Of a stretch of DNA of 64,000 nucleotides, positions 1,159 to 5,915 are shown piece by piece (the stretch's first letter is position 1; every line of letters starts with the position of its first letter). The position numbers were made by a program, and so were the translations under genes. Location of the stretch: positions 1 to 64,000 of the forward strand of contig JAJYCS010000001.1 in assembly GCA_021778115.1 (NCBI GenBank). The letters are read 5' to 3'. This DNA comes from Deltaproteobacteria bacterium (GTDB lineage: Bacteria > Desulfobacterota > Desulfuromonadia > Geobacterales > Pseudopelobacteraceae). The notes under the pieces were generated by a model that saw only the letters and a list, made by a program, of their open reading frames with translations, ran no database searches and was not told the DNA's origin.

Positions 1159-1983
1159 CTACAAAAGGCCCACGGCATCGGCCCGGCACTGCTTGCAATG
1201 CCGCATCTGGCCGATGATCCGTTCGTTGTCATCGCGAACCTGCGTCAGATACTCCGGACTCGGTGCCGGGATATGGGACAGGTCGGCCTGGGGGATGAGC
1301 GGCATCACGTTCATCACCAGTACGCCCAGCCCCTTGATCCGTTCGGCTATCAGGGGGATCTCGGCGTCGTTGATGCCGGGGATCAGTACGGTGTTGACCT
1401 TGACCACCAGCCCCAGCTCGCAGGCCCGCTGCACCCCCTCGTACTGGCTGGCCAACAGGATATCGGCCGCCTCAAGGCCGCTGTAGCGCTTGCCGTGATA
1501 CCAGATGTGGCGGTAGATGCGGGCCGCCGTGGCCGCCTCAACGGCGTTGACGGTGACGGTCAGGCTGTGCAGTCCCAGCGCCGCCAGGCGGTCCAGCGAT
1601 TCCGGCAGCAGCAGGCCGTTGGTGCTCATGCATGTGATCAGCCCGGGGAACTCCTCGCCCACCAGACGGAAGGTCTCAAAGGTCTGCTGGTTGGCTAGCG
1701 GGTCACCGGGACCGGCGATCCCCACCACCCGCATGGTGGGGCCCATAAGCGGTGAGGCCATCACCTCGCGTACCTTGTTCAGGGCCTCATGCGGTGTCAG
1801 CAGACGGCTGGTGACACCGGGACGTGATTCATTGGCGCAGTCGTGTCTGCGGGTGCAGTAGCCGCACTTGATGTTGCAGGCCGGGGCCACCGCCAGGTGC
1901 ATCCGGCCGTTCGTGTGGCGGTGGCCGGCGCTGAAACAGGGATGACCCTGCACCTTGGTGAGTTGTTGACAGGTGGTTGCCAT
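1159..1983 (-). CDS. nifB: Minimal (single radical-SAM domain) NifB-type FeMo-cofactor biosynthesis protein
   Basis: HPCFSAGHRHTNGRMHLAVAPACNIKCGYCTRRHDCANESRPGV (CX3CX2C radical SAM, NifB signature) and C-terminal RHCKQCRADAVG motif. Confidence 0.85.
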   Translation of the reverse strand: MATTCQQLTKVQGHPCFSAGHRHTNGRMHLAVAPACNIKCGYCTRRHDCANESRPGVTSRLLTPHEALNKVREVMASPLMGPTMRVVGIAGPGDPLANQQTFETFRLVGEEFPGLITCMSTNGLLLPESLDRLAALGLHSLTVTVNAVEAATAARIYRHIWYHGKRYSGLEAADILLASQYEGVQRACELGLVVKVNTVLIPGINDAEIPLIAERIKGLGVLVMNVMPLIPQADLSHIPAPSPEYLTQVRDDNERIIGQMRHCKQCRADAVGLL

Positions 1984-2003
1984 GATCAGTACTCCTTTCA
2001 GAC

Positions 2004-2046
2004 GGCAAACGGCGCCGCAGGGAGATCCCCCGCAGGCGCCGTTGCC
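2004..2046 (-). other. Long GC-rich inverted repeat in the 5' leader of the nifB-like gene
   Basis: Minus strand GGCAACGGCGCC TGCGGGGGATCTCCCTGC GGCGCCGTTTGCC; ends about 20 nt before the ATG. Confidence 0.6.
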
Positions 2047-2064
2047 TGAGATGCCAGAGGTAAA

Positions 2065-2079
2065 GCACAGAGCGTGCCA
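2065..2079 (-). promoter_or_regulatory. Sigma-54-type -24/-12 promoter candidate for the nifB-like gene
   Basis: Minus strand TGGCACGCTCTGTGC: GG-N10-GC spacing, -24 element matches consensus. Confidence 0.65.
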
Positions 2080-2082
2080 GGA

Positions 2083-2100
2083 TTGGCAGCTATCTTGCTT
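2083..2100 (+). promoter_or_regulatory. Sigma-54-type -24/-12 promoter candidate for the draG-like gene
   Basis: TTGGCAGCTATCTTGCTT: GG-N10-GC spacing with TTGGCA and TTGCT. Confidence 0.7.
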
Positions 2101-2111
2101 GACGCAGTGTC

Positions 2112-3023
2112 ATGAATCTGCAGTTCGATCTTGAAGAGGTGCGGCAGCGGGCCCGGGGGGCTTTTCTCGGCATGGCGGTGGGGGATGCCCTGGGGGCCAC
2201 GGTGGAGTTCATGACCGTCCCGGAGATCAGTGCCCGCTACGGCGTGCATCGGGAGATCATCGGCGGTGGCTGGCTGCGGCTGAAGGCCGGCCAGGTGACC
2301 GACGATACCGAGATGGCGCTTTGCATCGTCCGGGCCGTTGCGACGAGCCAGGGCTGGTCGCGAGAGGCGATTGCCCGAGAATTCGCGGCATGGCTCAAAT
2401 CGAGGCCGGTGGACTGCGGCGATACCTGTCGCAAGGGGATTCGCGCCTTCATGCTGCACGGCACGCTCGAAGTCCCCTACAACCACTGGGACGGCGGCAA
2501 CGGGGCGGCGATGCGGATGTTGCCGCCGGCCCTGCTGTCATTCCCTGACGGCGAGCTGCTGAAAAAGTACGCCCTGGAGCAGGCCCGGCTGACCCACCAC
2601 CAGGAGCTCTCCGATGCGGCCTGCCTCTGCATCGGCGCCATGCTGCACCTGATCCTGCAGGGGGTTTCCAAAAACCGCCTGCGCAGAGAGGCCGAGGCGT
2701 TGGTGGCCCGTCATCACCAGTTCGGATTCGAACCGTACCGGCGGCTCTCCAGCGCCTATGTGGCCGACACCCTGGCCACCGTTTTCCATTACTTCTTTAA
2801 AGGCCGGGATTTCGAGCACTGCCTGACCGGGGTGGTGAACCAGGGGGGTGATGCCGATACCACCGGCGCCATCTGCGGCATGCTGGCCGGCGGATATTAC
2901 GGCAGCGAGGGGATCCCCCGGCACTGGCTGAAAAAGCTGGACCGGCGGCTGGTCGCTGAACTGGAGCGAGCGACGGAGGGGTTGATTGCGGCCAGTCCCG
3001 CCGGCCGGTTGCCGGGCCCCTAG
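2112..3023 (+). CDS. draG: ADP-ribosylglycohydrolase family protein, DraG-like (ADP-ribosyl-[dinitrogen reductase] hydrolase)
   Basis: GAFLGMAVGDALGATVEF, VTDDTEMAL, NHWDGGNGAAMRMLP, GGDADTTGAICGMLAGGYYG motifs. Confidence 0.85.
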   Translation: MNLQFDLEEVRQRARGAFLGMAVGDALGATVEFMTVPEISARYGVHREIIGGGWLRLKAGQVTDDTEMALCIVRAVATSQGWSREAIAREFAAWLKSRPVDCGDTCRKGIRAFMLHGTLEVPYNHWDGGNGAAMRMLPPALLSFPDGELLKKYALEQARLTHHQELSDAACLCIGAMLHLILQGVSKNRLRREAEALVARHHQFGFEPYRRLSSAYVADTLATVFHYFFKGRDFEHCLTGVVNQGGDADTTGAICGMLAGGYYGSEGIPRHWLKKLDRRLVAELERATEGLIAASPAGRLPGP

Positions 3024-3571
3024 GGGAGTTGCCCCAGGAGCTCACGGGCCAGCCTGGCCAGTGATATCCGTCTGCTCATGGCCTGGCTCCGCATCCGGCG
3101 GTAGGCCTGTTCTTCGCTCAGCCCCTCGCGGGTCATCACGAGCCCTTTGGCCCGTTCGATATCTTTACGCTGTGCCAGCCCGGTGCGGGCCCTGGCCAGC
3201 TCATCGCTGAGACCGGCCAGCCGTTGCGCCGTGATGAGGGCGTAGTACAGGGCCGCTTCGCTGAACGGTTTGGTTAAAAAGGCGGCAGCCGGCGCCTCAA
3301 CTGCCTTTTTAACAAGCTGGCTGCCTTCAGGTTCCATCAGCAGGATAACCGCCGCCGTGACGGCGTCGGTCAACTCCCTGGCCAGCTCCAGGCCGGCAAC
3401 CGGCAGGGCAGCCTCCAGGAGGAGCAGGTCGGGCGTATGGTCCAGGGCCAGCTGCCGGGCGTCGTCACGCCGGTCGCACAGCAGGAAGCGCCCTATTCCC
3501 CACTGCGGCATCACCCGTTGCAGGGCCTCCAGAACGCTGCTGTCCCGGTCGCATATCAGGGCCGTTTTCAT
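3020..3571 (-). CDS. ANTAR-domain response regulator (NasT/AmiR type)
   Basis: N-terminal receiver-like domain; C-terminal DIERAKGLVMTREGLSEEQAYRRMRSQAMSRRISLARLARELL ANTAR signature. Confidence 0.85.
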   Translation of the reverse strand: MKTALICDRDSSVLEALQRVMPQWGIGRFLLCDRRDDARQLALDHTPDLLLLEAALPVAGLELARELTDAVTAAVILLMEPEGSQLVKKAVEAPAAAFLTKPFSEAALYYALITAQRLAGLSDELARARTGLAQRKDIERAKGLVMTREGLSEEQAYRRMRSQAMSRRISLARLARELLGQLP

Positions 3572-3614
3572 GACGCTTCCTCCTTTTCTGTTCCCAATGC
3601 TCGCCCGTTCGTCT

Positions 3615-3630
3615 GCATCCGGTATGCCAC
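3615..3630 (-). promoter_or_regulatory. Sigma-54-type promoter candidate for the ANTAR regulator
   Basis: Minus strand GTGGCATACCGGATGC, followed by A: GG-N10-GC. Confidence 0.5.

Positions 3631-3761: not shown

Positions 3762-5911
<2,150 letters not shown>

Positions 5912-5915
<4 letters not shown>

Follow-up and report, generated by a model that had tools for sequence, protein, structure and literature searches.

Closely set divergent sigma-54 promoters and an ANTAR-target-like nifB leader in a 128-bp nifB–draG spacer

Genes and sigma-54 promoters of the nifB–draG locus

The analysed stretch of 64 kb (the window) contains near its start a nifB-type radical-SAM gene (positions 1159–1983, minus strand) and a draG gene encoding ADP-ribosyl-[dinitrogen reductase] hydrolase (2112–3023, plus strand), which lie on the two sides of a 128-bp spacer (1984–2111). 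The 274-aa NifB-type protein is without the C-terminal NifX-like domain, and its match to TIGR01290 (325.9 bits, under the cut-off of 343.65) covers only model positions 6–276 of 441; the DraG protein scored over the cut-off of TIGR02662 (436.2 bits). These assignments confirm that the spacer separates nifB-like and draG-like genes, as proposed in the preliminary description of this DNA. Next to draG there is a gene for a response regulator with an ANTAR RNA-binding domain (3020–3571, minus strand; PF03861 and PF00072), which is GnfR-like in its domain layout, and divergent from it a gene for a hybrid histidine kinase with HisKA, HATPase_c, PAS, and receiver domains (3762–5915, plus strand). 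A similar kinase is encoded near the ANTAR gene in the relatives L001, L003, and L005, and the kinase is a possible partner of the ANTAR protein. Named close relatives of the window are Trichlorobacter and 'Geobacter sp.' MAGs. The L001 locus also contains a small ORF of 146 aa between draG and nifB (4397–4837), which has no Pfam match and is not present in the window; ORFs judged by eye to be similar were seen in L004, L006, and L007.

The genes nifH, nifDK, and nifEN were not found in the 99% complete assembly to which the window belongs (G000), despite the presence of nifB, draG, and draT. Hits to nifH over the cut-off were obtained in 10 of the 15 genus members. Because position 1 of the window is the contig start, only 1.2 kb beyond nifB, and because nifH is located about 6 kb past the nifB element in the L003 genome, the absence of nifH and nifDKEN is likely an assembly gap, with the loss of nitrogen fixation as another possible explanation. 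On contig 75 of G000 (L113 5284–6833), a sigma-54-like site, TGGCATGGCTTGTGC, precedes a gene for a FeMo-cofactor-type protein, a small ferredoxin-like ORF, and draT.

The 64 kb were scored with a sigma-54 matrix that was weighted by hand according to the textbook consensus. The site directed toward nifB (2063–2079, minus strand; TGGCACGCTCTGTGCTT) has the element letters TGGCACGCTCTGTGC, with GG at 2078/2077 and GC at 2066/2065, and the site directed toward draG (2083–2100, plus strand; TTGGCAGCTATCTTGCTT) has GG at 2085–2086 and GC at 2097–2098. The earlier reading had placed two sigma-54 elements of opposite polarity in this spacer, and its positions and strands proved exact to the base. 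With scores of 17.65 bits for the nifB site and 14.88 bits for the draG site under this consensus-weighted matrix, the two ranked first and second over the whole 64 kb, with either strand considered, and both fit the GG-N10-GC pattern in a TGGCAC-N5-TTGC-like context that is characteristic of sigma-54 promoters. In a first-order Markov control, a stretch of 64 kb yielded 0.95 sites with 14.8 bits or more, which corresponds to about 0.002 per 128-bp spacer. Genome-wide, the draG-type pattern TTGGCAN6TTGCTT had three exact matches, and the pattern TGGCACN6TGCTT had five, versus one for the reversed control. On the other hand, the loose sigma-54 consensus did not occur in the 64-kb window more often than expected by chance; hence, the case for the promoters rests on the quality of the sites, their position, and their conservation, rather than on loose counts. 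The rpoN gene was found in the same genome (440.9 bits). Taken with the retention of the sites in relatives (below), both predicted promoters are well supported. No terminator or sigma-70 promoter was called in a scan of the spacer.

The positions of the sites predict a nifB transcription start at about 2053 and a draG start at about 2110–2112. The –12 box of draG ends only 13 nt 5′ of the ATG (GC-N13-ATG), because of which the draG mRNA is predicted to be almost leaderless, starting at the ATG or no more than about 3 nt from it. Leaderless mRNAs are known in other bacteria, e.g., in S. meliloti (PMC3616915), and the predicted draG start at or beside the AUG resembles them; the difference is that the draG prediction comes from a sigma-54 –12 box, in a layout that is kept in 31 of 80 loci.

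Conservation and spacing of the promoters in relatives

The conservation of the promoters was analyzed in 80 NifB loci, which were the window and 79 relatives, most of them labeled Geobacteraceae or Desulfuromonadales and the rest MAGs grouping with them. The gene order ANTAR–draG–nifB–GNAT recurs in many of these loci. A nifB-directed GG-N10-GC site was present in 74 of the 80 spacers, mostly 90–99 nt before the ATG, and a draG-directed site ending 12–14 nt before the ATG was present in 31 loci, where shuffled sequences would give 0.94; the relatives in these counts are not independent of each other. The close-set draG layout covers the whole clade of the window (13/13 loci) and most Geomonas-type loci. 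In a second large group, the GG-N10-GC of draG is located further upstream, often together with a Shine–Dalgarno-like sequence. Two of the checks proposed earlier, weight-matrix scoring, which was run here on the 64 kb, and comparison of orthologous spacers, thus both came out in favor of the two divergent promoters. In the spacer of L049 (about 4880–5000) a draG-directed GG-N10-GC seems to share its GC with the nifB –12 box in a face-to-face overlap, which has a weak score and may be due to chance.

The GG dinucleotides of the nifB and draG sites in the window are separated by 6 bp. Most relatives have the two promoters roughly 280–900 bp apart, with a repeat of the form TGC-N11-GCA between them, and the length of the spacer varies among the loci from 112 to more than 900 bp. 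This repeat is a gapped palindrome with an A/T-rich core, and it was found in 48 of the 63 spacers of 270–600 bp, compared to 3.4 expected. Its distance to the GG of nifB falls into clusters of 115–119, 127–129, and 135–140 bp (near 117, 128, and 139), which are spaced by about one helical turn, and a related repeat (10–14 bits) is located 117–118 bp before the GG of nifH in all eight genus members examined. Because of these clustered distances and the nifH copies, the repeat is a strong candidate for an activator (enhancer) site. Several loci in the wider clade of the window have a copy, in some cases weak, about 61 bp before nifB. Across G000, the UAS pattern gave as many matches as the reversed control. 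A good copy of the repeat, TGCATATATTTTATGCA, was seen on contig 75 in the region between glutamate dehydrogenase and ETF genes (L113 8200–8640); this match is suggestive from its position alone.

The repeat was not found in the spacers of the window, L003, and L005. It had been supposed that any enhancer would lie inside one of the transcribed leaders or genes, which was not borne out by a search of positions 1500–2700 of the window; this search gave no convincing match, only a weak one at 2557 (7.2 bits, about nt 446 of draG). Because this codon position of draG gives a score as well in relatives whose spacers are normal, the match at 2557 is best read as coding. Matches at nt 117 of draG in L029 and L049 were likewise read as coding. 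The window may have an enhancer of another kind or at a more remote position.

The compact loci are those of the window, L003, and L005, with spacers of 127–128 bp and the identical 6-bp gap; most invariant columns of these three spacers belong to the two promoters, the leader hairpin described below, and the Shine–Dalgarno sequence of nifB (AAAGGAG, 1992–1998, minus strand; GAAAGGAG), which is invariant in all three. Near neighbors are not compact, as L001 has a spacer of 647 bp, L009 of 354 bp, and L010 of 357 bp, and long spacers are also present in L004, L006, L007, L008, and L011. In the tree, L001 groups with L005 inside the group of the window, so the three compact loci are not set apart from L001, which suggests that the length change was likely repeated or reversed. 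Together with the wide spread of spacer lengths, this would be expected if the compact spacer reflected neutral genome shrinkage, with the promoters served by an enhancer that has diverged or lies far away, and if the compaction had no regulatory meaning. Arguing against it are the identical length and geometry in three species and the 6-bp gap of L029, which is distant in the tree and has a weak draG site (8.9 bits). We give neutral shrinkage a substantial chance, somewhat short of even, and it is compatible with the explanation favored below. The compact 128-bp form appears to be an enhancer-depleted state of a conserved Geobacteraceae nitrogen-fixation locus.

The nifB leader RNA and the ANTAR regulator

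The region downstream from the nifB promoter contains an RNA layer, consisting of a leader hairpin and the nearby ANTAR gene, which the preliminary description missed. The nifB RNA has, only about 7 nt from its predicted 5′ end, a hairpin GGC[AACGGC]GCC (2035–2046, minus strand), in which a hexaloop (2043–2038) with A1 and G4 is closed by a stem of 3 bp. Targets of the ANTAR proteins EutV, NasR, and AmiR are characterized by a hexaloop in which A1 and G4 are fixed, on a stem of 3 bp or more, and by an overlap with the stem of a terminator, and those of EutV require two hairpins (PMC3369931). The leader of the window resembles them in the loop and the stem; its hairpin overlaps a terminator-like stem, which has a weak U tract. 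It differs from the EutV targets in that it has room for one hairpin only, because the predicted 5′ end is so close to this hairpin. This spacing, with 4–8 nt before the hairpin, is common to the window and most short leaders. Many Geomonas-type loci have the textbook two hairpins; such dual hairpins, e.g., AGGTAC[AACGAT]GTATCT followed by GGC[AACGAT]GCC, are present in Geomonas and Citrifermentans. Since there is one hairpin and not two in tandem, the nifB leader of the window is better called ANTAR-target-like than a proven member of this class.

The hexaloop hairpin is enclosed by a putative competing attenuator hairpin (2004–2046, minus strand), which overlaps it completely. The fold of 2002–2046 has a predicted energy of –35.9 kcal/mol, and the z-score of the leader is –3.8. 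The U tract of the attenuator is weak in the window, where no terminator was called, and ends in TTTTT in relatives; in most relatives the 3′ arm of the hexaloop hairpin is also the 5′ arm of an intrinsic terminator. The hairpin GGC[AAYGNN]G(C/T)(C/T) was found downstream from the nifB promoter in 72 of the 80 leaders. Loop nucleotides A1, A2, and G4 were invariant in an alignment of 38 rows, but the motif used to pick the rows already prescribes these nucleotides, and the evidence is therefore the 72/80 count and not the invariance. The three base pairs of the hairpin stem (P2) never vary in this alignment and gave no covariation, and the stem that follows the hexaloop hairpin has double-sided changes among relatives.

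A covariance model (R1) recovered the nifB element in G000 with a value of 3.6e-10, and it also detected the element across the genus, with weaker copies before nifH. In eight genus members the nifH leader contains a sigma-54 site, then AAGGC[AACGGC]GCCTT, and then a terminator-like stem; this arrangement was not found in the L123 nifH leader that was inspected. The motif GGCAAYGNNGCC alone is not specific, because it had 51 matches genome-wide versus 48 for the reversed control. The sole Rfam hit, RcsR1, was sub-threshold (16.6 bits, cut-off 60) and on the wrong strand. Other R1 matches that were inspected in the genus (L140, L142–L149) resembled ordinary terminators without GGC[A..G..]GCC before a nif gene. 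In one genus member (G001), GGC[AGTGAG]GCC with a terminator precedes a hypA-like gene (L141 1501–1544), which could be a further ANTAR target or a chance occurrence.

The ANTAR protein encoded at 3020–3571 is the only one in the genome of the window, and exactly one ANTAR protein was found per genome in all 15 genus members, with its gene about 2 kb or less from the nifB element in most of them, as judged by coordinates. The ANTAR gene is preceded by a third predicted sigma-54 promoter (3613–3629, minus strand; TGGCATACCGGATGCAG), which scored 12.0 bits and lies 58 nt before the ATG, and 37 of 39 relatives have an equivalent site 45–70 nt before this gene. No enhancer-like repeat of the TGC-N11-GCA class was found at a conserved distance from the sigma-54 site of the ANTAR gene.

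That the leader hairpin could be an ordinary attenuator or an mRNA-stability hairpin with no link to ANTAR is suggested by its single copy and poor U tract in the window, the lack of covariation in P2, and the absence of an Rfam match. However, the GGCAAYG sequence is conserved although most relatives have it outside the stem of the terminator, dual hairpins are found in Geomonas, a lone ANTAR gene is located near the locus in every genome of the genus, and an element of the nifB type also precedes nifH, which together make this explanation unlikely.

Regulatory interpretation of the locus

The explanation that we consider probable is a nifB gene with two gates, sigma-54 and ANTAR antitermination, next to a draG gene with one gate, in a compact locus depleted of its enhancer. 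Under nitrogen limitation an enhancer-binding protein would activate the sigma-54 promoters of three genes, nifB, draG, and the gene for the ANTAR regulator. The control of draG would be exerted at initiation only, with the mRNA starting at or near the ATG. The nascent nifB RNA would open with the hexaloop hairpin, which the ANTAR protein may hold, and the held hairpin would block formation of the overlapping attenuator hairpin, so that RNA polymerase could reach nifB; in the genus, nifH would have a gate like that of nifB. In the lineage of the window, the TGC-N11-GCA repeat between the promoters would have been lost, and the –24 boxes now have only 6 bp between them.

At this distance the footprints of two sigma-54 holoenzymes are expected to overlap, and thus only one holoenzyme would probably be seated at a time. 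That the two holoenzymes exclude each other is therefore plausible, as a reasonable physical expectation and not as a demonstrated function. The preliminary description had gone further and proposed a compact switch of competing promoters that sets cofactor synthesis against nitrogenase reactivation. The divergent promoters of this proposal stand and are conserved, while its status as a conserved device is not supported, because most relatives have their promoters far apart; the opposition of cofactor synthesis to reactivation is without support, and the common layout, with a single repeat between both promoters, argues instead for co-activation. Hence, a switch in which exclusion sets nifB against draG, although consistent with the expected overlap and with the 6-bp gap of the window, L003, L005, and the distant L029 with its weak draG site, is quite improbable, considering the separated promoters of most relatives, including L001, L009, and L010, that nifB and draG belong to one physiological program, and that exclusion by itself yields no signal-dependent choice. 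We also put forward, tentatively and as rather unlikely, that the 128 bp are a minimal unit combining a mutually exclusive promoter pair that has lost its enhancer and has no dedicated activator site, a single-hairpin ANTAR target at the 5′ end of the nifB RNA, and a leaderless sigma-54-dependent draG transcript.

Operons that diverge from sigma-54 promoters with an enhancer between them are known, e.g., hyc/hyp of E. coli. The divergent –24/–12 promoters resemble this type, which is also the layout of most relatives of the locus; the window differs in that the likely enhancer between the promoters is missing and in its –24 boxes only 6 bp apart. In Geobacter sulfurreducens, the GnfL/GnfM and GnfK/GnfR systems of Ueki and Lovley 2010 reportedly combine sigma-54-dependent nif activation with antitermination by an ANTAR response regulator. 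The control of the locus is best modeled as a variant of this Gnf cascade, with which it would share sigma-54-dependent nif activation and an antiterminating ANTAR response regulator. It differs in that the ANTAR gene is located beside draG–nifB, in that nifB and nifH of this clade have a single hexaloop hairpin, and in that the compact locus is without the enhancer-like repeat. The paper on the Gnf cascade (Ueki and Lovley 2010, doi 10.1093/nar/gkq652) is cited in PMC8164766.

The locus family forms a natural series, from separated promoters with a likely enhancer between them to promoters that nearly touch and are without it, and it could therefore serve to test if an enhancer at a fixed place is a requirement of sigma-54 promoters. 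The data also suggest that ANTAR control likely extends to nifB and nifH in Geobacteraceae, where orthologous genes offer both single- and dual-hairpin leaders of the ANTAR type, and they predict a conserved, sigma-54-driven leaderless mRNA for DraG, the enzyme that reactivates nitrogenase.
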